IMG/VR virus record: IMGVR_UViG_3300021518_000102
Coordinates: 1-22,066 of that record
Length of the DNA: 22,066 bases
From: a virus
Direction: 5' to 3' (one strand)
Shown here: positions 7,225-20,664 of the stretch, in pieces
Position numbering within the stretch: position 1 is the first letter of the stretch
How the letters are laid out: every line of letters begins with the position of its first letter
Position numbers and translations under genes: made by a program
The notes under the pieces: generated by a model
What the model saw: the letters and a program-made list of their open reading frames with translations, nothing else
Told to the model about the DNA's origin: nothing
The model's database searches: none

Positions 7225-7632
7225 TCAGCTTTTGAACAGGTCGCCCTGCCGCGTATCGGCCAGCTCTTTCAGCCGGGCACGGCGGCGGCGGACCGTGCGG
7301 ATCGTGTATCTGAGCGCGAGCGCGATGTCACGTTCGCTGCGTCCGGCCAGCAGCATCGCATCGCAGCGGGCCTGCGCGCTGGCGATGAAGCCGACATCGC
7401 CGAGCGGGATTTCCAGCCGCAGCGGGCCGACCCCGGCGGTGAAGTGATCGGCGATCCGGCCTGCCGCCTCCAGCCCGACCAGCTGGCTGAGCCAGTGATC
7501 GGCGCCGGGGGCGGGCGGGATGTAGACCTGCGTCCCGCCGACCGCATCCGCCACCCGGCGCGCCGCTTCCTCGCCCGCGATCCGGACGATATCGGCAAGC
7601 ACCTGCGGGAGGGGATCGGCGGGCTGGGTCAT
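7225..7632 (-). CDS. mor: Mor-family transcription activator
   Basis: The protein is 135 aa from MTQPADPLPQVLADIVRIAG at 7632; the longer frame to 7881 shadows the upstream genes. The N-terminal dimerisation part ends in the GGTQVYIPP beta strand (32-40) typical of Mor/C, and the C-terminal HTH spans about 95-120 (LAGRSERDIALALRYTIRTV) with a very basic RRRRAR tail. In Mu, Mor activates the middle promoter and C the late promoters. Here the gene sits at the end of the early block, directly before the lysozyme gene, as expected for a switch to lysis and morphogenesis transcription. The start overlaps the zinc-ribbon gene stop (TGATG). Confidence 0.9.
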   Translation of the reverse strand: MTQPADPLPQVLADIVRIAGEEAARRVADAVGGTQVYIPPAPGADHWLSQLVGLEAAGRIADHFTAGVGPLRLEIPLGDVGFIASAQARCDAMLLAGRSERDIALALRYTIRTVRRRRARLKELADTRQGDLFKS

Positions 7633-7802
7633 CAGCCGGTGATAACGGCCTGCGCCAGCGGCAGCGGGTGGCTGCAGTGGCTGCATTCGGCGGTGGTGCG
7701 GCCGACATGCCAGCCCTTGCTGCCGCACTGCGGACAGCGGTTGGTCTCGCCCTCGTGGTAGCACAGCGGCGCGGGGCGATCGAAGCAGGTGCGCGCGTTC
7801 AC
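7632..7802 (-). CDS. 56-aa zinc-ribbon protein
   Basis: A small frame with a GTG start overlapping the GemA stop (GTGA) and a TGA overlapping the Mor ATG (TGATG). It contains CPQCGSKGW (23-31) and CSHC (40-43), a four-cysteine zinc ribbon, plus C6 and C14 nearer the N-terminus. The ribbon pattern (CxxC, W, then CxxC) resembles restriction-alleviation-like or 50S-ribosomal-type zinc ribbons. No specific family is claimed. Tight coupling on both sides supports that it is expressed. Confidence 0.72.
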   Translation of the reverse strand: MNARTCFDRPAPLCYHEGETNRCPQCGSKGWHVGRTTAECSHCSHPLPLAQAVITG

Positions 7803-8512
7803 TTCCCACCCCCCGCTGCGCGCAGCTTTTTGCCCAGGGCATTGGCGATGGTGTCGTAACCTTCGGCGGTGATCGGGCCATTCGCGCCCGGCTCTATGCC
7901 GCAAAGCCGGAAGGCGGCGATATCGATCGTCCAGTCGGCCGGGATCACGTCAGCTCCTTTGAGCTTCCAGAGGATCGCCTGGCACAGGTTTTCCTTGAGC
8001 TTCATCACTGTCCAGGCATTGCCGTTGGCATCGACCTGCGGCCAACCATGCCGCGCGGCCATCGCCTTCAGCGCCTCGATCAGGCGGTAGCCGTGCGACT
8101 GGTTGGCCCAGACCAGCCGCTCGCAGCCGAGCTGGCGCTTGGCGAAGGCCTCCAGCGCCTTTTCATCGGGGCTGCGCACCGCGCCAAGGTGATAAAGGCT
8201 GATCCACAGCGCCCGCGCCTTGCGGGCGACGGGATGCTGCGCCGGGCGGCCTGCCCCCTGCGCCCCGCCCGCCTTGGGCAGCGGCTTGAAGCCCTTGGCC
8301 TCGAACCGCTTGAGCGCCCGCTCCAGCTCGGCCTCGGTGCAGTCGCCTGCGCTGGTGCGGCCGGTTTCATCGAGCAGGATCTGGCGATAGTCGTCCTCGT
8401 CCAGCTGCAGCTGCTTTCTGGCGACATGGATCTTCGCCAGCATCGCGCGGCGGCGGGTGGCCGAACGATCGAACTGCGCCGGCGCGGCGTTGGTGTGGAG
8501 GGCAAGGCTCAT
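7799..8512 (-). CDS. gemA: GemA-like protein (Mu gp16, DUF1018)
   Basis: The protein is 237 aa from MSLALHTNAAPAQFDRSATR at 8512; the frame upstream to 8797 shadows other genes. The N-terminal segment (MLAKIHVARKQLQLDEDDY, about 27-45, then QILLDETGRTSAGDCTEAEL) is the DUF1018 signature. A basic Ala/Gly linker (about 95-110) and a helical C-terminal domain (ALWISLYHLGAVRSPDEKAL) follow. In Mu, gemA affects host gene expression and DNA supercoiling; its mechanism is poorly known. It lies between small membrane and zinc-ribbon genes and before Mor, as in other Mu-like phages. Confidence 0.88.
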   Translation of the reverse strand: MSLALHTNAAPAQFDRSATRRRAMLAKIHVARKQLQLDEDDYRQILLDETGRTSAGDCTEAELERALKRFEAKGFKPLPKAGGAQGAGRPAQHPVARKARALWISLYHLGAVRSPDEKALEAFAKRQLGCERLVWANQSHGYRLIEALKAMAARHGWPQVDANGNAWTVMKLKENLCQAILWKLKGADVIPADWTIDIAAFRLCGIEPGANGPITAEGYDTIANALGKKLRAAGGGK

Positions 8513-8670: not shown

Positions 8671-8858
8671 TAGTGATACTTCCCGATCCCCAGATCACGA
8701 TGCAGCTTTTCGCCCTTGGCCTGGAGCTTGTCGGCCGCAGCGCGCAGGCAGTCCGCTGCGCTGAAGAATGCCAGGTCTTCGGCGTAGTCGAACGCAAGAT
8801 CGACCAGCTCGGCGGCAGTCATGTCGGCCTCGGTGCGAGGCTTGCGAGGCGCGCTCAT
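8670..8858 (-). CDS. 62-aa helical phage protein of unknown function
   Basis: The protein is 62 aa from MSAPRKPRTEADMTAAELVD at 8858, a start that overlaps the MuB stop (ATGA); the longer frame to 8972 is a shadow inside MuB. A basic N-terminus precedes two predicted helices (about 12-30 and 33-52) and ends LGIGKYH. No domain was recognised. It lies between the transposition ATPase and GemA, where Mu-like phages carry variable small early genes. Confidence 0.72.
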   Translation of the reverse strand: MSAPRKPRTEADMTAAELVDLAFDYAEDLAFFSAADCLRAAADKLQAKGEKLHRDLGIGKYH

Positions 8859-9829
8859 GCCCGGATCCACCGCGTGGCGCGTTCGCGCTGGGCGTCGCGC
8901 AGGTCGGCGATCGACAGGCCGCGATCCTCGGCCACCGCCAGAATCGTCGCCGCCTCGATCAGCTGCTTGCATTCGCGCAGGCCGCCGCTGTCGGGCGTCA
9001 GCGCGATGTTCTGGAGGTAGCGCCGAATGTCCGGCTGCTCGATCCCCCAGGCGTCACAGAAAGCGGCAACATCCTCGGGCAGCGGGGTGCGCTGTTCGTG
9101 CATGTTGGCGATGCGGCTGAGCAGCCGGGCGAGCTGATCGCGCTTCGGCCCGGTCTTGATCGTCTGGATCAGCTGTTCGTTGCCGAAGATGCAGATGCCG
9201 ACGCCGGTGATGTCGTGCCAGTTACGCAGCTGCTCGATCGATTCGAGCGTCAGCCAGTTGCCTTCATCGATCACCAGCAGGCCCTTGCGGCCGCTGATCC
9301 GCGTGGTGACCATCGCGGCCGCATCGGCCTTGGAAAGGTAGCGCGGCTCGACGCCCAGCGCGGCCAGCACCGATTTGGTCATGGCCAGCAGGCTGCCGGT
9401 GGCAGGGCTCATCGTTGCCCGCCAGACCGATGCGGCGCGATCGGCATATTCGTCCATCGTGAAGGTCTTGCCGGTGCCCGGGCCGGTGCCGACGACAGTG
9501 ATCCGGCCCGAATGCGCAATCTCCAGCAGGTCCATCATCCGCAGCGAAGTGCGGGTGTCGAAATAGCCCGGGTTGGTGGGCAGCTGCGACTGGCGCATCG
9601 TCTGCGCCTCGACCATCTGGCGGAACTGGAACACCTTGCGGGCCACGTTGCTGCCCCCGTCCCTCGCGCCGTAAGTGCCGGCGGCGAAGGTGGTGATGGT
9701 GCCGAGCGCGATGCCCGATTCCTTCGCCAGCTGGCTCCACGGCATCGGCGGATCGCTGAGCTCGCGGTAGCTGTTGAGCCAGAAGCGCATCTCCTCGACG
9801 TCGACCGGCAGATCCTTCACGTTGATCAT
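8855..9829 (-). CDS. MuB-like transposition ATPase
   Basis: A 324-aa AAA+ ATPase. It shows Walker A GTGPGTGKT (114-122), Walker B GLLVIDEG (183-190) and a sensor-like FGNEQ (215-219). The N-terminal 60 residues hold a MuB-type HTH (WSQLAKESGIALGTITTFAAG). MuB binds DNA as ATP filaments, delivers target DNA to MuA and gives target immunity. The start has an AGGAGA ribosome site, and it follows the transposase gene by only 28 bases. The length is close to Mu B (about 312 aa). It is the second core gene that shows this element moves by replicative transposition. Confidence 0.93.
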   Translation of the reverse strand: MINVKDLPVDVEEMRFWLNSYRELSDPPMPWSQLAKESGIALGTITTFAAGTYGARDGGSNVARKVFQFRQMVEAQTMRQSQLPTNPGYFDTRTSLRMMDLLEIAHSGRITVVGTGPGTGKTFTMDEYADRAASVWRATMSPATGSLLAMTKSVLAALGVEPRYLSKADAAAMVTTRISGRKGLLVIDEGNWLTLESIEQLRNWHDITGVGICIFGNEQLIQTIKTGPKRDQLARLLSRIANMHEQRTPLPEDVAAFCDAWGIEQPDIRRYLQNIALTPDSGGLRECKQLIEAATILAVAEDRGLSIADLRDAQRERATRWIRA

Positions 9830-9857: not shown

Positions 9858-11825
9858 TCAGTTGTTGGCAGCCGCGATCTTCGCGCGGCCGATGCGCATC
9901 CGTTCGAGCGTGCTCAGCGGCGTGGGCTCGGCGGATGAGGGATTGGTTTCAGGCCGGGGCAGGCCCACTGCGGTGCCGTGCGGCCGCACCGGGCGGACCG
10001 CACCGGCGCGCGGGGACGGCGCGGGCAGGACGCCCGCCTGCAGATCGGCCAACTGATCGGGCGCGATGAGATCGGCAGCGGCGGCCTGCGCCTTGGTTGC
10101 CTTCTTGAAATCGGCGGTGCGCTTGGCCGCTTCCCTGGCCCCGGCGGCATCGTGGAAGCCGGTGTCGGCAATCACATCGGCGGCGGCGATGTAGCGGCCC
10201 TCGAAATCGTAGACATGCACCTCGGCGTGCAGGTTGTCGGGATCGAAGCGCACCGTCACCCGCTCGCCCCGGCGGCTCGAAAGCTCGGGGTGCCAGTAGC
10301 GGTTGCCATGCAGCTCGATCTCGCCGGTCTGGCGGTTGATCAGCTTCTGGTCGGCCGCGAGCAGCGCCATCCGCAGCTGCTCCGGCGTGGCCTTGCCGAT
10401 CGGGCTGGCGGCGTAGCTTTCGAAGAACACATCATCGAAACTGCGCCCCAGCGCGGTCTGCGTGCGGCGACCCGGGCGGGCGTTGTGCGCGGCGATCTCC
10501 TCGTCCACCAGCGCCACGAAGCGGTCCCACGCCACCGCCTTGCTGCCGTAGTTCTCGGGCTTCGCCATCGGGCTGTTGCCGGTATAGGCGCCCTCGCACG
10601 CGGGATGCTTGGCGATGGAATCGCACAGATCGCGGAAAGCGCGCTCGATCGGCTTGGACTGGCCGCGGAACGGCATCGCCCAGTGGATCTTCACGCCCAG
10701 ACCGGTCAGCAGGCCGGTGGGCTCCTCTGGGCGGATCTTGAAGCGGAAGCGGCTCTTCGCCCCGCCGGTGATCCATTTGGAGGCGAAGGCCCGGCCGTTA
10801 TCCAGCACGCAGGCGGCAGGGATGCCGAAGTTGCGAAAGCAGTCGGCGAAGGCGAGCCGGGTCTGGATCGCGCTTTCCTCGGTCCCGACGCGCCAGGCGA
10901 GCAGCTTGCGGCTGTAGATGTCCTGGATTGCCACCATGATCGGGCGCACCACGCGGCCGTCGGCGGTTTTCACGAAGACATCTAACTTGTGCCCGTCGAT
11001 ATTGACGCATTCGAGCGCCCGCAGCTCTTCCACCGTGCGGCGCTGCGCGGGGGTCGAGCGGCGCAGCGCCTCTTCGCCCTCGCGCTTCAGGGTCAGCACG
11101 GCGGCGGGATATTCCCGCTCCACCCGCCGCCTGAAGGTGCGCTCGGACGCCATGAAGATGCCGCGCTGCTGCGCCATCCGCTGGACGCGGTAGTAGCAGC
11201 TGGTCAGCGTCGGCGCGCTGGGGCGCAGGTAATCGCTGATGAAGGCCTTCCACAGATCCGAGTGGATTTCGGCCTCGGCCCCGCCGCCCTGGCGGCGCGG
11301 GGCAAGCGCGGGCAGCCAGTCGGTCCGGGGGATGCCCTCGACTGCGCGCAGCCAGTTCCACAAGGTCGATCGGCCGACACCGTGCGTGTCCGAGGCATCG
11401 GCCACCGCGCTGCTGCGGGTTGCGCCGGCTTCGCACAGCAGCTCGATCGCATTGACGATATCGAGGCGACGCTGCGCTTCGGCCTTTACCTTGGCGCTCT
11501 GCTTGTCGAACCAGCCCCAGGCGGTGGTCTGTTCGGCCACCGCGATCGGGCGCAGCCGGATTTCGTCGGATTGCGCCAGCGCGATGCGTGCCTCGCCGGG
11601 CAGCAGGCTGCAGTGGAATTCCACCCCGCCGCCCCGCCCGGCGCGCTGGCGCACCAGCGGGCGATTGTCGCGGCCCAGGCGCGAGGCCCAGCGTTCGGTT
11701 GCGGCGCGGCGCTTGATCGAGCGCTTGTCGCCCGGCAGCCCGGGCAGGCCGAGCGTCTCCAGCTCACTGGCGGTGAACCAGGCGTCATCTTCGAACGGCA
11801 CCTGATGCGCTGCGAGTACGCTCAT
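9858..11825 (-). CDS. MuA-like DDE transposase
   Basis: A 655-aa protein, close to the 663 aa of MuA. The N-terminal winged helix (WFTASELETLGLPGLPGDKR, 16-35) is the MuA-type DNA-binding domain, followed by further helical DNA-binding domains (about 100-240). The RNase H-fold core has D277 (NIDGHK), D342 (LDNGRAF) and E394 (KPIERAF), matching the MuA DDE triad (269, 336, 392) in position and spacing. The C-terminal beta-barrel region follows, then a basic tail (LERMRIGRAKI) suited to contact with MuB and ClpX. It cuts the phage ends and joins them to target DNA. The start overlaps the upstream stop (ATGA). Confidence 0.96.
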   Translation of the reverse strand: MSVLAAHQVPFEDDAWFTASELETLGLPGLPGDKRSIKRRAATERWASRLGRDNRPLVRQRAGRGGGVEFHCSLLPGEARIALAQSDEIRLRPIAVAEQTTAWGWFDKQSAKVKAEAQRRLDIVNAIELLCEAGATRSSAVADASDTHGVGRSTLWNWLRAVEGIPRTDWLPALAPRRQGGGAEAEIHSDLWKAFISDYLRPSAPTLTSCYYRVQRMAQQRGIFMASERTFRRRVEREYPAAVLTLKREGEEALRRSTPAQRRTVEELRALECVNIDGHKLDVFVKTADGRVVRPIMVAIQDIYSRKLLAWRVGTEESAIQTRLAFADCFRNFGIPAACVLDNGRAFASKWITGGAKSRFRFKIRPEEPTGLLTGLGVKIHWAMPFRGQSKPIERAFRDLCDSIAKHPACEGAYTGNSPMAKPENYGSKAVAWDRFVALVDEEIAAHNARPGRRTQTALGRSFDDVFFESYAASPIGKATPEQLRMALLAADQKLINRQTGEIELHGNRYWHPELSSRRGERVTVRFDPDNLHAEVHVYDFEGRYIAAADVIADTGFHDAAGAREAAKRTADFKKATKAQAAAADLIAPDQLADLQAGVLPAPSPRAGAVRPVRPHGTAVGLPRPETNPSSAEPTPLSTLERMRIGRAKIAAANN

Positions 11826-13043: not shown

Positions 13044-13295
13044 TCAGTTCCTCATCATCCAGCGGGCGTCGAAGTCGTCGAAGGTCGGCGCGGGCTGCTC
13101 CTCAGGCCGCAGGCTGAGCGGCTGCAGGGCCGAGCGCAGGCCGCGGCGGGCCATCTTCGCACGGTGCGCCTCGCGCGCCTCGGCCGCCTTCATCCGCGCC
13201 TCGGCCTCGATCGGCGTGACGCCCAGCTCCATCGCCAGCAGCATCACCTTGCGATGGTGGCGGTAGTATTCGGCCTTGCTGGCAAAACGGGGCAT
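13044..13295 (-). CDS. 83-aa basic helical phage protein of unknown function
   Basis: Starts MPRFASKAEYYRHHRKVMLL. A GAGGAGG ribosome site 9 bases upstream supports this ATG at 13295. The first 55 residues are strongly helical and basic (MKAAEAREAHRAKMARRGL), suggesting nucleic-acid or protein binding, and the end is acidic and aromatic (TFDDFDARWMMRN). The gene overlaps by 194 bases the out-of-frame 3' part of the upstream HTH gene, which appears to have lost its own stop. The family is not recognised. Confidence 0.72.
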   Translation of the reverse strand: MPRFASKAEYYRHHRKVMLLAMELGVTPIEAEARMKAAEAREAHRAKMARRGLRSALQPLSLRPEEQPAPTFDDFDARWMMRN

Positions 13296-13518
13296 CAGCG
13301 GTGTCCTCCTCAGCCTGCAGGCGCGCGAGCAGCCGCCGCGAGCCGCGCTTCACCAGCGCCTCGCGGTGGCGATCGTGCGCCGGATTTTCGTCGAAGGTGG
13401 AGATGATCGCCTGCGCCCGGGCGACCGAGATTCCGAACTCGGCGGCGATATCGGCCTCAGGCCAGCCAAGATCGAAGCGCGCCATCACTGCCTGTTCACC
13501 GGGGGTCAGGTTGGACAT
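13102..13518 (-). CDS. Small HTH protein, second tandem copy; 3' end apparently frame-extended
   Basis: The first 70 or so residues (MSNLTPGEQAVMARFDLGWP, EADIAAEFGISVARAQAIIS) form a Myb/sigma-70-region-4-like HTH and align along their whole length with the 73-aa gene just upstream (L-x-P-x-E-x-AV at the start, then an HTH, then a basic RL-rich end). The paralogue ends HR-stop at a CACCGCTGATG junction. The same 11 bases occur here at 13293-13303, but two bases out of frame, so the frame runs on for about 65 residues of Gly, Pro and Arg-rich sequence shadowing the next gene. The native protein was probably about 73 aa. An assembly error, a recent indel or a genuine long tail are all possible. 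Confidence 0.65.
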   Translation of the reverse strand: MSNLTPGEQAVMARFDLGWPEADIAAEFGISVARAQAIISTFDENPAHDRHREALVKRGSRRLLARLQAEEDTADAPFCQQGRILPPPSQGDAAGDGAGRHADRGRGADEGGRGARGAPCEDGPPRPALGPAAAQPAA

Positions 13519-13739
13519 CAGCGGTGCCCTCCCGCCTGCCGCACCAGCTCGCCGAGGCGGGTGGTCTGGGTGCGAACGGCATCCTCGGCCCTCGCGTCCT
13601 GGGCGAGGTTGACATGGAACCGCTGCACGATGTTGGACACCGTCTCGCGCCGGAAGCCGGTGGCCCGGGTGATCTGGTCGATGGTTTCGCCGCGATCGTG
13701 CCGGTCAAGCACCGCCGCCTCGGTTGGATAGAGGCCCAT
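13518..13739 (-). CDS. Small HTH protein, first tandem copy
   Basis: The protein is 73 aa from MGLYPTEAAVLDRHDRGETI at 13739, with a GAGGG ribosome site 8 bases upstream; the longer frame to 13868 is a shadow of the LexA-like gene. A compact HTH (ETIDQITRATGFRRETVSNIVQ, about 18-38) is followed by a charged C-terminus. The stop overlaps the start of the paralogous next gene (TGATG). Such small proteins could act as phage regulators in DNA binding, but no family beyond HTH is claimed. Confidence 0.75.
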   Translation of the reverse strand: MGLYPTEAAVLDRHDRGETIDQITRATGFRRETVSNIVQRFHVNLAQDARAEDAVRTQTTRLGELVRQAGGHR

Positions 13740-13743
13740 CAGT

Positions 13744-14022
13744 CTAGCCCTCAATCCGCACGAAGTGCAGCGGCTCACCATCGGGGGCGCGCGGAATTGC
13801 GATAGGTGCCAGCACATCGATGCCACGGCTGACATTGGGGGTGACGCGGATCGCGCCGCGTTCCTCAAGGCTGCGGACCAGCCAGTCAGCGGTGAAGGCG
13901 GTCTGGCCCTTCAGGCCCAGGCCATCGGCGATCTCGCGCAGCGTCGGCGCGACGCCGAGGCTTTCCTTGAACCCGGCGATAAAGCGCAGGGCCTCCTGCT
14001 GGCGGGCGGTCAGGGTCATCAT
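13744..14022 (-). CDS. LexA-like winged-helix DNA-binding protein, second tandem copy
   Basis: The protein is 92 aa from MMTLTARQQEALRFIAGFKE, starting at 14022 with an ATGA overlap of the upstream stop. The N-terminal 70 residues resemble the LexA DNA-binding domain (LTARQQEALRFI, VAPTLREIADGLGLKG), which recognises operators by a winged helix. There is no S24 peptidase domain. The C-terminus PDGEPLHFVRIEG matches the preceding gene, so the two are tandem paralogues. A role as early phage regulators is inferred. The longer open frame to 14307 is a shadow. Confidence 0.8.
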   Translation of the reverse strand: MMTLTARQQEALRFIAGFKESLGVAPTLREIADGLGLKGQTAFTADWLVRSLEERGAIRVTPNVSRGIDVLAPIAIPRAPDGEPLHFVRIEG

Positions 14023-14300
14023 GCCGCCAGCCCTCCGGCGCGCACGAAATACAGCGGCTCGCCATCCGGTCCGCGCGGGATCGGCAGCTGGGTCAGCACC
14101 CGGATTGATCGCTCGCGCCGGGGTAGGCGACGCACGTGCCCGCCCTTCTCTAGCTGCTCGATCAGCCGGTGAACCGAATGCTTGCTGCCAAGCCCCAGGC
14201 CGTCGCCAATCTCGCGATAGCTCGGGCCATGGCCGTGCACCTGCAAAAAGCCGATGATGAAACGCAGCGCGTCCTGCTGGCGGGCGGGGATCGTCGTCAC
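14019..14300 (-). CDS. LexA-like winged-helix DNA-binding protein, first tandem copy
   Basis: The protein is 93 aa from a GTG at 14300 (TTIPARQQDALRFIIGFLQV), overlapping the stop of the 34-aa membrane gene (GTGA). The LexA-type winged helix (ARQQDALRFIIGF, GPSYREIGDGLGLGSKHSV, EQLEKGGHVRRL) is complete, and no catalytic domain follows. About half of its residues match the next gene, including the shared end PDGEPLYFVRAGG. It probably binds DNA as a small accessory regulator; the target is unknown. Confidence 0.78.
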   Translation of the reverse strand: MTTIPARQQDALRFIIGFLQVHGHGPSYREIGDGLGLGSKHSVHRLIEQLEKGGHVRRLPRRERSIRVLTQLPIPRGPDGEPLYFVRAGGLAA

Positions 14301-14401
14301 TGAACAATCCCCCACAGGATCATCACCCACCAGATCACTCCGGGCGCAATGATGGCGACAACCATCAGCGCGAGTGCGCAGTCGATCAACGTGTCCCGCA
14401 T
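14297..14401 (-). CDS. 34-aa single-pass membrane microprotein
   Basis: A tiny frame, too short for most gene callers, beginning MRDTLIDCALALMVVAIIAP. Residues about 8-32 form one long hydrophobic helix with three tryptophans (VIWWVMILW). A GAGG ribosome site lies 7 bases before the ATG. The frame overlaps the methyltransferase 3' end by 16 bases and its stop overlaps the next GTG start (GTGA), so it exactly fills a gap in an otherwise fully packed operon. The role is unknown. Confidence 0.6.
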   Translation of the reverse strand: MRDTLIDCALALMVVAIIAPGVIWWVMILWGIVQ

Positions 14402-15084
14402 GACGGGGCCTCCTCAAGTGACAGGATTTCGGAATTGCGGGCCAGCGGCGGCAGCCAGATCGTGCGCGTCTGGCCGCGCGGGGTCGGGCACTTCACGTCC
14501 CACACGATCCAGCAGTAATCGATCATGCCCCCGCGAAAGGCCCGCTTGCCCATCGCATCGATCAGGTCGCCCGGCGGCATCGAGGGACGCTGGCACAGGT
14601 GCAGCACCGCCTGCGGCGGATGATCGCTGAACAGCTGGTAACGCGCCTGCGCAGCGAGCCACTTGCTCGGCACAAGGGTGCAGACCCGAAGCGAGGTGAG
14701 GGTCAGCGCGTGGCGGACGAAGGCCTCAAGGATGCCTTTCCGGTAGCTATAGGGCGGGTTGAAGATCAGGCTGCAGGGAACCGGCGCGGCCTTGGTTTCG
14801 AGGAAGTCGCGCTGGTTGAAGATCATCGGCGCGCCGCCACCGAAATTCTGGTAGGCGACGTTCTCGACGAGGTCCGATCCGTAGGTGATGAAGTTCCGGT
14901 CGTGCGCGGCGAGCAGGGTGTTGCCCATCCCGCAGCACGGATCCCAGATACACAAGTCCCACGCGCGCTCAGCTGCGAAGTCCTCGAGCGCGAGCGCGAG
15001 CTGCTCGGCGCACCAGAACTCGTCAACATACCAGTCGAGCGGGTGGCGCTTCGAATGCCGGCCGGATGAGATTTCGCCCCTCAC
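14386..15084 (-). CDS. Phage DNA methyltransferase (adenine-N6 type motifs)
   Basis: The protein is 232 aa from a GTG at 15084 that overlaps the ParB-like stop (GTGA). It has a Rossmann-type SAM site DPCCGMGN (48-55), an acidic residue after the second strand (YGSDLVEN, D71) and the catalytic loop NPPY (109-112), typical of amino methyltransferases acting on adenine. The C-terminal part (GDLIDAMGKRAFRGGMIDYC) may take part in target recognition. There is no restriction partner nearby, so it is likely a solitary phage enzyme that guards DNA against host restriction. Specificity cannot be read. Confidence 0.8.
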   Translation of the reverse strand: MRGEISSGRHSKRHPLDWYVDEFWCAEQLALALEDFAAERAWDLCIWDPCCGMGNTLLAAHDRNFITYGSDLVENVAYQNFGGGAPMIFNQRDFLETKAAPVPCSLIFNPPYSYRKGILEAFVRHALTLTSLRVCTLVPSKWLAAQARYQLFSDHPPQAVLHLCQRPSMPPGDLIDAMGKRAFRGGMIDYCWIVWDVKCPTPRGQTRTIWLPPLARNSEILSLEEAPSCGTR

Positions 15085-16088
15085 TCGCCCAGCTCCTCGT
15101 TGAGCCGGTCGCGCAGCGCGCGCTTCATCTCGGGCGTGAGCATCGAGGCGAGTTTCGGGACGAACTGCCGCTTCTGGTCGAGGCTGAGCCGCGACCACGC
15201 GCCGGTGATCGCGTTGTAGTGCTTCTGGTGCGCCAACGGCGTGGCGAGCGGCACCGCCGCCCCGACGCCGACCGCGATCTTCGCGTCCTCGACCCCGATC
15301 TCGTGATCGGCGAGCAGCGCCTCGATCACCTTGCGGCGGATGCCCTCATCCTTGAGGTCGCAGATAGCCTTTAGCTGGCTGCCGTTGTTCCCCGCGACCG
15401 GGTGCTTCGCGAGCGCCTCTGCAAGGTCGGGGAACGGCTCGATGACAAGGCGCGAAAGTGCCAGATCACGGTGGATCGTGCGGCGCGACATATCGAGCGC
15501 TTCGCCGACCGATTCCTCCCACCCGTATGCTTGTGCCATCGTGGCACAAGCATCTTCGGTCTCTTCCCTTAGAGCCGCCTCAGCGGTCTCTTCGAAGTGC
15601 TTCACGCGGTCCCAGCGAGCCTTCGCGCCGCGCTGGTATTGGTCGAGGTTGCCGTGCGCCCGCGCGATCCGCTCCTGCGCGGCGGTCACCAGTGCGGCGG
15701 TGAACTTGGCGCGCTCGATCAGCCCCAGCGGGCGACGGTGGCGATTCTCCGAGGCCTCCAGATCGGCGAGGTCTTCGGGCTTGCCCTTCACCTCGATCGC
15801 GAAGACCGTGATGCATTCATAGGTCGCGCCCATCAGGCGGTGCATGCCGGTGACAAGCCGCCAAGGCTTCTTGCCCTCGGCAACAACAGCCTCGATCGAC
15901 TTGCTCGGCAGGTTGCGCGCCACCTTGATCGGGTCGCGCTGGCCATCGACGGCCATCAGACGGCCAAGCGCCGCAGCCTTGTCCTCGTGCAGGAAACCGA
16001 TCCGGTTGGGGATCAAAACGTCGGTGGGCGAAAGCTCCAGCACGGCGGCGCTGGTCAGCAGCGGGCGCCCGTTCGAACCAGCGTTCAT
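15081..16088 (-). CDS. ParB/Srx-domain protein
   Basis: The protein is 335 aa from MNAGSNGRPLLTSAAVLELS at 16088, preceded by GGGGG 7 bases upstream; an ATG at 16103 is possible. The N-terminal ParB-type domain has a PIKVARN segment, RLVTGMHRLMGA (77-88) and an EASENRHRRPLGLIERA stretch (111-127). An HTH follows (GEALDMSRRTIHRDLALSRL). The C-terminal region is helical and charged. ParB-like proteins in phages may be partition, transcription or nuclease factors; no ParA is present, so plasmid-type partition is unlikely. It couples to the methyltransferase downstream (GTGA) and the 142-aa gene upstream (ATGA). Confidence 0.85.
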   Translation of the reverse strand: MNAGSNGRPLLTSAAVLELSPTDVLIPNRIGFLHEDKAAALGRLMAVDGQRDPIKVARNLPSKSIEAVVAEGKKPWRLVTGMHRLMGATYECITVFAIEVKGKPEDLADLEASENRHRRPLGLIERAKFTAALVTAAQERIARAHGNLDQYQRGAKARWDRVKHFEETAEAALREETEDACATMAQAYGWEESVGEALDMSRRTIHRDLALSRLVIEPFPDLAEALAKHPVAGNNGSQLKAICDLKDEGIRRKVIEALLADHEIGVEDAKIAVGVGAAVPLATPLAHQKHYNAITGAWSRLSLDQKRQFVPKLASMLTPEMKRALRDRLNEELGE

Positions 16089-16513
16089 TTCGCACCCCCA
16101 CATAGACGGTGCGGAGCAAGCGCGGTCCGGTTAGCCTCCTCGTCACTCGCACAGGAGAACAGCCCATGCCGAATGCCGGTCTCAATTCGATCGAGCAGCT
16201 GCGCGACCAGCTTTACGCCCTCCAGCAGCTCGTCCTCGCGCAATGCGTGGCCCTCGGCACCGCCGACCGGCCCGCGCTCGATGCCACTCTGTTGATCGCC
16301 GCGGGGCAGGCCGACGCGCTGATCGCCAATGGCCGCCCCATCGCTGGCCAGCGGCTTGCGCTGCTGGTCGATGAGGTGCGCAAGTGCCTCGACTGATGCG
16401 CGCGTCTGCGCGACCGCTGCTTTCACGCGGATCGCCCGCAGCGTCAGCCGCACGACATTGGAGTCCGCGAAGCCGACATCGGCCAGCTTCTCGTGAAACG
16501 GTGAAACCCTCAC
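16085..16513 (-). CDS. 142-aa phage early protein of unknown function, with an antisense frame opposite its 3' half
   Basis: Starts at a GTG overlapping the Ner-like stop (GTGA) and ends at a TGA overlapping the ParB-like ATG (ATGA). This double coupling and about 78% G+C at third codon positions favour a real gene. The first 60 residues look like a natural helical protein (VSPFHEKLADVGF, VVRLTLRAIRVKAAV, ASVEALAHLIDQQRK). The C-terminal part is glycine-rich and less convincing, and it faces a good rightward frame at 16166-16396. No family is recognised. Confidence 0.62.
   Translation of the reverse strand: MRVSPFHEKLADVGFADSNVVRLTLRAIRVKAAVAQTRASVEALAHLIDQQRKPLASDGAAIGDQRVGLPRGDQQSGIERGPVGGAEGHALREDELLEGVKLVAQLLDRIETGIRHGLFSCASDEEANRTALAPHRLCGGAK
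16166..16396 (+). CDS. Possible antisense 76-aa helical protein
   Basis: A rightward frame beginning MPNAGLNSIEQLRDQLYALQ and ending EVRKCLD, with an AGGAG ribosome site 8 bases before the ATG and about 84% G+C at third positions. It reads like a natural helical protein. It lies wholly opposite the leftward 142-aa gene. Only one may be translated, or this may be a genuine antisense pair. An in-frame ATG at 16109 lacks a comparable ribosome site. Confidence 0.5.
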   Translation: MPNAGLNSIEQLRDQLYALQQLVLAQCVALGTADRPALDATLLIAAGQADALIANGRPIAGQRLALLVDEVRKCLD

Positions 16514-16758
16514 GCCGCCACCGCCTTCCCGCGACCGGAGAGCCGCGCAGCATCCTCGGCGTCGATCTTGTCGAGCTCGCGATAGAGCGCCCCGATCGAA
16601 TGCAGATTCGCGCCGGGTGGGTTCGGGTTCCGCTCGGTCTTCTTCCAGTTGTGGAAGGTGTCCTGATGGATGCCCGCACGGCGGCAGAGCTCGGCGATGG
16701 ATATCCGCGACGCTTTGGCGCGCCGCGCGATGTCTTGAACGATGGTTTGCTGGTCCAT
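16510..16758 (-). CDS. Ner/Cro-like HTH regulator
   Basis: The protein is 82 aa from MDQQTIVQDIARRAKASRIS at 16758. The frame is open to 16788, but the first operator and the proposed -10 box lie in that stretch, so the later start is preferred. The HTH (RISIAELCRRAGIHQDTFHNWKK, about 18-40) is of the XRE/Cro type, followed by TERNPNPPGANLHSIGALYR. As the first leftward gene facing the repressor it holds the place of ner in Mu, which turns down early and repressor transcription. Little or no leader lies between the proposed transcript start and this ATG. Confidence 0.75.
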   Translation of the reverse strand: MDQQTIVQDIARRAKASRISIAELCRRAGIHQDTFHNWKKTERNPNPPGANLHSIGALYRELDKIDAEDAARLSGRGKAVAA

Positions 16759-16765
16759 GACCAGG

Positions 16766-16794
16766 CGCATATCCGAGATTTCTCGCACTGTAAA
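16766..16794 (-). promoter_or_regulatory. Candidate early promoter
   Basis: On the leftward strand TTTACA (16794-16789) and TATGCG (16771-16766) are separated by exactly 17 bases. The -35 matches the consensus at five of six positions, the -10 at three of six. The first operator lies in the spacer and the second just upstream of the -35, so repressor binding would block polymerase. The inferred start of transcription is near 16759, almost at the Ner-like ATG. Confidence 0.6.
16774..16785. promoter_or_regulatory. Operator 1 (palindrome)
   Basis: CGAGA-TT-TCTCG is a perfect 5-2-5 palindrome between the two divergent regulator genes. It lies in the spacer of the candidate early promoter. A nearly identical copy is centred 22 bp away, about two helical turns, which suggests cooperative binding by repressor dimers. 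Confidence 0.7.
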
Positions 16795-16795
16795 C

Positions 16796-16807
16796 GGAGA
16801 TTTCTCG
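16796..16807. promoter_or_regulatory. Operator 2 (palindrome)
   Basis: GGAGA-TT-TCTCG differs from operator 1 by one outer base. It sits immediately upstream of the candidate -35 box and 37 bp before the repressor ATG, so it could serve both early repression and repressor autoregulation. Confidence 0.68.
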
Positions 16808-16844: not shown

Positions 16845-17492
16845 ATGCCAGGGGTAGAGAAAGACGCTGCGCTGATCACTGCGTTGGTCGATTACGCGGG
16901 CGTGAGCCTGACGGAGGTGGCGAAGCGCGCCAAGGTCGACCCCGAAACCCTGAGGAAGCCCGTGAAGGGCATTGTCGACACACGCCTCAGCCAGCGCACT
17001 ATCGAAAAACTCGCCGACGCCTTCCCGAAGTTCCCAGGCTGGACCCGAGCTGGGGCTGCCGCGCTTGCCAGCTTCGATGAGCCCGATCTTGTCCCGGTCC
17101 GCGAGATCGACCTCAGCTTCGGCATGGGGGCAACCTATCTCGACGTGCCGATCACCGAGGAGGTCCACCACTTCCCCCGCGCCTGGCTGCGCCGCTACAC
17201 CCGATCCGCGCCAGACAAGCTGTTCTTCGCGCAAGGGATCGGTGACAGCATGGAGCCGACCCTCCACGACAGCGATCTGCTCCTGATCGACACCGCCCAG
17301 CGCCAGCTCACCAGCGCCGATCGCATCTGGGTGCTCACTTATGCCGATTGCGGCATGATCAAGCGCCTTCGCCCTGTTCCCGGCGGCGGCATCGAGGTAT
17401 GGTCTGACAAGAAGGAAGTCTCCCCCTTCACCGCCTATGACGGCGAGCTCGAGATCATCGGCCGCGTCGTCGCAGTCCAGAGGAAGCTATGA
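16845..17492 (+). CDS. Phage repressor, HTH plus S24 (LexA/CI-like) peptidase domain
   Basis: A 215-aa protein. The N-terminal domain holds an HTH (VSLTEVAKRAKVDPETLRKP, 20-39). The C-terminal S24 domain has the nucleophile S135 in GDSMEPTL and the general base K173 in MIKRL, 38 residues apart as in LexA. It would hold the prophage silent by binding the two operators just upstream. No Ala-Gly or Cys-Gly cleavage site is visible in the 85-110 linker, so SOS self-cleavage is uncertain. There is no clear ribosome site before the ATG, so it may be translated leaderless. The 107-aa gene overlaps its stop (ATGA). Confidence 0.88.
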   Translation: MPGVEKDAALITALVDYAGVSLTEVAKRAKVDPETLRKPVKGIVDTRLSQRTIEKLADAFPKFPGWTRAGAAALASFDEPDLVPVREIDLSFGMGATYLDVPITEEVHHFPRAWLRRYTRSAPDKLFFAQGIGDSMEPTLHDSDLLLIDTAQRQLTSADRIWVLTYADCGMIKRLRPVPGGGIEVWSDKKEVSPFTAYDGELEIIGRVVAVQRKL

Positions 17493-19231: not shown

Positions 19232-20521
19232 TCAATCCACAAACGGATCGCGCATCAGGATGGTGTCGTCGCGTTCAGGCGAGGTCGAGACCAGCGCGAC
19301 CGGGCATTCGATCAGTTCCTGGATGCGCTGGATGTACTTGATCGCGTTGGCGGGCAGATCGGCATAAGAGCGCGCGCCTGCGGTGCTTTCGTGCCAGCCG
19401 GGCATGTCTTCGTAGATCGGCTCGCACCCGGCCTGATCGGCGGCGTGGCTGGGAAGGTAATCATAAACCTGTCCGCGCAGCCGGTATCCGGTGCAGATCG
19501 ACACCTTGTCGAGCCCGTCGAGCACGTCGATCTTGGTAAGCGCGATGCCGGTCACCCCGCTGATCGCGCAGGACTGGCGCACCAGCACCGCATCGAACCA
19601 GCCGACCCGGCGCTTGCGCCCCGTGACCGTGCCGAATTCGTGCCCGCGCTCACCCAGCCTTTGGCCGATGTTGTCTTCGAGTTCCGTCGGAAACGGCCCG
19701 CTGCCGACGCGGGTGGTGTAGGCCTTGACGATCCCGAGCACGAAGCCGGTCGAATTGGGGCCGAGCCCGCTGCCGCTCGCCGAGGTGCCGCTCACCGTGT
19801 TGGAGCTGGTGACGAAGGGATAGGTGCCGTGATCGACATCGAGCAGCACGCCCTGCGCGCCCTCGAACAGGATTTTCGCGCCCGCGCGGCGCACTTTTTT
19901 GAGCCGTTTCCACACCGGCTGGGCAAAGCGCAGCACGAAGGGGGCGATTTCGCGCAATTGGTCGAGCAGCGCCGCGCGGTCGACCGGGGGCTGACCGAAC
20001 CCGGCGCGCAGCGCGTCGTGGTGGGCGCACAGGCGATCGAGCTGCGCTTCGAGGCTGTCGACATGCGCAAGGTCGCACACCCGGATCGCGCGCCTGCCGA
20101 CCTTGTCCTCGTAGGCCGGGCCAATCCCGCGCCCGGTGGTGCCGATCTTGCCCTTGCCCGCCGCGGTTTCGCGCAAGGCGTCGAGATCGCGGTGGAGCGG
20201 CAAGATCAGCGGGCAATTGTCGGCCACGGCGAGATTATCGTCGGTGATGGTGACGCCCTGCGCCTCGACCTTGGCGACCTCGTCACGCAGCGCCCAGGGA
20301 TCGAGCACCACGCCGTTGCCGATCACCGAAAGCGTGCCCGAGACGATCCCCGATGGCAGCAGGCTGAGCTTGTAGGTCTTGCCATCGATTACAAGCGTGT
20401 GGCCGGCATTGTGACCGCCCTGGAACCGCACCACGGCGTCGGCGCGGCTCGCCAGCCAGTCGACGATCTTGCCCTTGCCCTCATCTCCCCACTGGGCGCC
20501 GATCACGGTGACGTTGGCCAT
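19232..20521 (-). CDS. purA: Adenylosuccinate synthetase
   Basis: The protein is 429 aa from [20 protein letters not shown] at 20521, with AGGA upstream; the frame open to 20653 is not needed. It contains the GTP-binding WGDEGKGK motif (11-18, catalytic D13), GGHNAGHT (with the catalytic His), [13 protein letters not shown], the [19 protein letters not shown] region and [11 protein letters not shown]. It joins IMP and aspartate with GTP to make adenylosuccinate, the first committed step to AMP. The length is the usual one for bacterial PurA, and all key motifs are intact. This is a core chromosomal gene. Confidence 0.98.
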
Positions 20522-20664
20522 CTCATTCCTTTGGCTGGTGGGCACAAACCGCGCGGACCTAGGCGCTCGGGGCTGGCGAGGCAAGCACCCGGACGCCCGG
20601 TGCGAAGGGTTGTCCACCCAGCCCCGTTCAGCAATGGTCGAATGCCATCGCATCAGGAACCATC

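Follow-up and report, generated by a model that had tools for sequence, protein, structure and literature searches.

In the early operon of a Mu-like phage, two small adjacent genes, here called A and B, encode LexA-type DNA-binding domains without the protease. We hold it to be somewhat better than an even bet that their products are SOS-blind regulators of phage promoters, most likely working as an A-B heterodimer, with neighboring genes C and D forming a second pair. The stretch of DNA analyzed, called the window below, is the whole 22,066-base virus record IMGVR_UViG_3300021518_000102.

The early operon and its genes

The virus is Mu-like and comes from Erythrobacter-type bacteria. Mu-like phage genes, lysozyme and terminase genes among them, fill the left part of the window and include both the MuA transposase and MuB that characterize a Mu-like transposable phage; a frame at 19232-20653 on the right side is purA-like, a name given from sequence only. 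After the Ner/Cro-like gene, the early operon runs through a ParB-like gene, a gene with methyltransferase-like motifs, A, B, C, D, E, MuA and MuB, and this order from CI/Ner to MuB is common to related phages. With MuA, MuB and GemA all present, the earlier account of a Mu-type early operon with paralogous DNA-binding genes in two neighboring pairs holds.

16845-17492, plus strand: CI-like S24 repressor, facing the minus-strand early operon
16510-16788, minus strand: Ner/Cro-like gene, first of the early operon
14297..14401, minus strand: predicted membrane peptide gene, 34 aa, just upstream of A and overlapping its start
14019..14300, minus strand: gene A, 93 aa, GTG start overlapping the stop of the membrane peptide gene
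13744..14022, minus strand: gene B, 92 aa, paralog of A, start overlapping the end of A
13518..13739, minus strand: gene C, 73 aa, LuxR/NarL-like HTH, then one long helix (model residues 31-68)
about 13312..13518, minus strand: conserved part of gene D, 69 residues, homologous to C, TGATG overlap start
13102..13311, minus strand: out-of-frame tail of D, from a one-base deletion versus relatives, running 194 bases into E in another frame
13044..13295, minus strand: gene E, 83 aa, conserved neighbor, 66-87% identity in most related phages
9858-11825: MuA (Pfam DDE_2 match, 3.7e-48)
8855-9829: MuB (Pfam Phage-MuB_C match, 4.1e-12)
about 7799-8509: GemA (GemA match, 8.7e-32)
about 7225-7635: Mor-like gene (weak Pfam match)

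Several features of this neighborhood were noted in passing. A 270-aa frame (14386-15198, minus strand) carries DPCCGMGN and NPPY motifs that by eye resemble an N6-adenine DNA methyltransferase; a family search gave no clear match. The 34-aa membrane peptide has relatives in several of the related phages. Between Ner and ParB, open frames overlap on opposite strands (16167-16396, plus; 16085-16513, minus), and the matching region is 91-98% conserved among phages L036, L038 and L021. For E, neither Pfam nor NCBIfam gave a family match, and none of the annotated phage records matched it.

A and B are LexA DNA-binding domains without a protease

The preliminary description had reported two LexA-like genes with a common end; genes and coordinates were confirmed, the ends reading PDGEPLYFVR and PDGEPLHFVR. 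BLASTP aligned A and B at 50% identity over 92 aa (E 6e-29), and their alignment score exceeded all 2000 shuffles (z = 41), so that by sequence they are true paralogs. Both match Pfam LexA_DNA_bind (PF01726) over their full length at E of about 1.5e-12, above the cut-off, and belong with the LexA N-terminal winged-helix domain. Neither matched the S24 C-terminal autoprotease with its Ser-Lys dyad, and proteins ending at 92-93 aa leave no room for an S24 core; against TIGR00498 they reach 47.7 of 110.95 bits, far under the cut-off. An AF2 model of A shows three helices and a two-strand wing, and LexA chains were its best solved matches in Foldseek (E 4e-5). From its identity to A, B would have the same fold.

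The most and the least variable parts of these proteins lie in two segments of A, both mapped approximately, to a codon:

14150..14186, minus strand: recognition helix, about residues 39-50, SKHSVHRLIEQL
14039..14083, minus strand: C-terminal tail, about residues 73-87, PIPRGPDGEPLYFVR

Among 35 phage A/B proteins, mean entropy was highest in the recognition helix (2.40 bits) and lowest in the tail (0.76 bits), with helix 1 at 1.32 bits. The constant tail reads PRAPDGEPLxFV. Pairs of tails differ at 39% of third codon positions, compared with 1% of first and 5% of second positions. This synonymous variation led us to reject a DNA or RNA element, and the codon pattern indicates that the tail is conserved as a peptide. 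In the model of A it is of low confidence (pLDDT about 51, residues 81-90). Aligning its R-A-P-D-G-E-P-L with the E. coli LexA cleavage region RVAAGEPL adds only about 2 bits; that the tail is a relic of the cleavage region is retained as no more than a lead. A variable recognition helix joined to a constant tail points to DNA targets that change and a protein partner of the tail that stays the same.

An old pair, sometimes fused

Copy number in relatives was surveyed with E, not A-D, as the anchor; seven Erythrobacteraceae genomes and 16 IMG/VR contigs gave 21 phages after near-copies were merged. Twelve have two A/B genes and nine have one. C/D genes number two in six phages, one in nine and none in six. 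The two-plus-two arrangement occurs in only 3/21. A row of four small DNA-binding genes is in this sense as unusual as first described, but all 21 phages carry one A/B gene or more. More widely, 401 genomes were sampled from the family to which E. tepidarius belongs, and in 9 of them an A/B match reached E 1e-15 or better. A/B relatives were also found in some phage contigs without a MuA match; by eye, those of L076 lie upstream of a large primase-like gene and those of L069 upstream of a serine-recombinase-like gene.

The order in two-copy phages is A then B. In the A/B tree (93 columns, with many weak forks), second copies largely cluster, first copies fall into several other groups, and single copies fall among both. 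This grouping suggests that the duplication probably predates the 21 phages and was followed by losses. A recent tandem duplication is rejected by the A/B tree and by the C/D tree, whose support is weak. The earlier label of tandem duplications is correct as to paralogy and misleading as to age, since the trees make the duplications ancient and the pair in the window a survivor of an old arrangement.

A and B are joined in a single polypeptide in three phages of two separate lineages (L013/L033 and L014/L029; separately, L030), each fusion retaining one tail. In L014 (3873-4835), the fused frame has no expected stop and continues through C in another frame into D, reaching 376 aa, possibly by a further frameshift or as a real fusion. 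Across the phages, A and B identities rise and fall together (Mantel r 0.56, p 0.0005), and neither covaries with Ner; the covariation may in part reflect adjacency and linkage of the genes. Taken together, fusion in two lineages and covariation suggest an A-B heterodimer. It cannot be obligatory everywhere, given the 9/21 phages with one A/B gene.

Exchange independent of the immunity region

At the CI-Ner boundary (16774-16807) lie two GAGAAATCTC-like near-palindromes, almost the same in L030 and different in most other phages; they are probably CI/Ner operators. The position of A-D in the early operon, and palindromic CI-Ner regions in relatives, would suit A/B and C/D acting as repressors or anti-repressors at the CI-Ner switch, of their own phage or of competing phages. 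Comparisons between phages speak against it for the phage's own switch; a role against competing phages is less affected by them. L036 and L038 have identical CI-Ner intergenic regions and identical Ner, with CI and MuA each 93% identical, yet their A proteins are only 47% and their B proteins only 52% alike. L021 and L036 show the reverse, with A at 98% and B at 90% but CI at 50% and Ner at 76%. The A/B pair is by these patterns not tied to the immunity region, and sequence comparison has it exchanged as a cassette independently of CI/Ner; its target is therefore probably not the CI-Ner operator. The suggestion in the preliminary description that these proteins bind at 16774-16807 is disfavored accordingly.

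Another reading treats the slot as a place where assorted small genes are carried as cargo; the chief task of the HTH proteins would then be to control the cassette itself, much as anti-CRISPR genes have their accompanying regulators. Between L036 and L038, likeness in CI, Ner and MuA is mostly 85-99% while the block from A/B to E diverges, and relatives carry other genes in the same slot: two unrelated small types, of about 102 and 140 aa, were seen beside A/B in several phages (L026 5343-5651, L031 4147-4572 and others). Neither type had a Pfam or PADLOC match, and for want of the latter defense genes were rejected. A/B genes are, however, too constant in E-carrying phages for pure cargo, and the genes overlap or nearly touch, with no obvious room for promoters inside the block in the window. 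We regard this explanation as unlikely, to about the same degree as the CI-Ner switch.

Replacement of Mor by A/B was rejected, as the Mor-like gene is conserved in most related phages whatever their number of A/B genes. A/B are unlikely to be a standard late activator.

Recognition helices and host SOS boxes

Identity to the 12-residue recognition helix of host LexA ranges from 1/12 to 9/12 across the A/B family. The helix is acidic and altered in some first copies (L021, L036, L020 and L028 type), whose DNA binding may not be LexA-like. A of the window keeps 8/12, compared with 12/35 outside the helix (residues 4-38), and A of L026 keeps 9/12. Such figures favor A, perhaps with B, occupying host SOS boxes instead of LexA and so holding the SOS response down or up during transpositional replication. 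We consider this the least probable of the explanations, since B shares 2/12 with the host helix and most of the family 1-5/12 despite an almost constant host LexA, A has HS for the host's SG at two neighboring helix positions (which we take to match residues that contact bases in E. coli LexA), the alphaproteobacterial SOS box GTTC-N7-GTTC is absent from all 22,066 bases of the window, and related A/B genes occur in phages without MuA. The same counts weaken an earlier proposal of decoys for host LexA sites, A being the exception: its host-like helix residues leave it a small chance of meeting LexA half-sites. The search for an A/B operator covered the CI-Ner region and SOS boxes only, and found none there.

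Genes C and D

Two HTH paralogs of about 73 aa had been described next to A and B. Homology and the length of C stand; the open frame of D in the window is 138 aa and overruns E. BLASTP gave no match between C and D. Their alignment did beat all 2000 shuffles (z about 7), and the family profiles match across all 73 columns (E 7.9e-22, probability 99.4%), from which C and D are homologous, weakly so as a pair. The model of C has an HTH followed by a 38-residue helix and is nearest to NarL/LuxR-type domains (Foldseek probability about 0.97, E only 0.26); the C/D profile matches NarL at E 0.001. Fold and profile agree on a NarL/LuxR-type HTH, and at 73-74 aa for the whole protein no receiver or sensing domain is attached. 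Of the checks that the preliminary description had proposed, alignment against shuffles came out in its favor for the A/B and C/D pairs, and structure prediction gave a LexA fold for A and an HTH, at a modest Foldseek E, for C.

The length of the D frame is explained by a one-base deletion near its end. Homologs of D in related phages, where intact copies are present, measure 73-74 aa, almost all with AGGHR as their last residues; in D of the window, one base is missing immediately ahead of the conserved ribosome-binding site of E. The deletion recurs in contig L003/L024, which is 99.99% identical over 10 kb and is no independent check. Contig and window may come from the same population, and the deletion could conceivably be an assembly error. 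The AGGHR end of the family comes from translation through the ribosome-binding site of the following gene, a site that the window retains. A 20-base repeat shared at 13290 and 13513 was, like the AGGHR ends, rejected as an operator, being mostly this conserved site (AGGAGGACACCGCTGATG).

Proposed role

Regulation, which the preliminary description had offered among other roles, is kept as the best reading. A and B would be LexA DNA-binding domains stripped of the S24 autoprotease that responds to RecA. As products of a Mu-like prophage's early operon, they would act on phage promoters as transcription regulators blind to SOS, most likely as heterodimers. Each subunit would read its own half-site through its fast-changing recognition helix, and the PRAPDGEPLxFV tail would hold a partner that does not change, be it the second subunit or the transcription machinery. 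A second old pair in the same exchangeable slot would be C and D, HTH proteins of the LuxR/NarL type whose long C-terminal helix lends itself to pairing. Heterodimer, tail role and transcription control are all inferred.

A more specific form is rather doubtful, if less so than the explanations set aside above: a two-part regulator derived from LexA, no longer sensing damage and exchanged between transposable and non-transposable phages, in which two diverged LexA domains dimerize asymmetrically, their recognition helices differ from phage to phage, and the constant tail docks one fixed partner. Candidates for that partner are RNA polymerase and an S24 repressor, the tail in the latter case mimicking the cleavage loop.

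Comparison with known systems

Bacterial LexA (PF01726 + PF00717) resembles A/B over the full length of the winged-helix domain. Without the S24 core A/B would not undergo RecA-stimulated self-cleavage, and their tail is faintly like the start of the cleavage region (GEPL). Profiles identify PHROG 3502, 24920 and 362 as the same small LexA-domain phage proteins; 362 is labeled 'transcriptional repressor', 3502 and 24920 have no assigned function, and the entries give no pairing or tail. C/D resemble NarL/LuxR-type C-terminal HTH domains in fold and profile but are whole proteins by themselves, lacking a receiver or ligand domain, and in the model C adds one long C-terminal helix. The Mor/C activators of phage Mu are likewise HTH regulators in a transposable phage; they differ from A/B in that the window already has its distinct Mor-like gene.

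The nearest known system is GIL01 gp6, a truncated LexA that directly activates the late promoter P3 (PMC6182141) and the one phage LexA domain without a protease studied in depth among the open papers we searched. A/B look like a variant of this kind, phage LexA domains no longer under damage sensing, and in those papers we found no earlier description of it. As an old family of pairs, fused in some phages, with a hypervariable recognition helix, a nearly constant tail, and operators and regulators naturally shuffled, they offer a convenient system for asking how a host stress repressor becomes a signal-free phage regulator and what the tail contacts. By its description (PMC6182141), gp6 of the betatectivirus GIL01 is of the same type as A/B, a small phage-encoded LexA DNA-binding domain alone, from an early gene of a temperate phage. 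On the same comparison by description, gp6, for which its coordinates give about 66 aa, is single and activates late P3 in a Bacillus phage, whereas A/B are an old pair with a conserved tail in a transposable phage.
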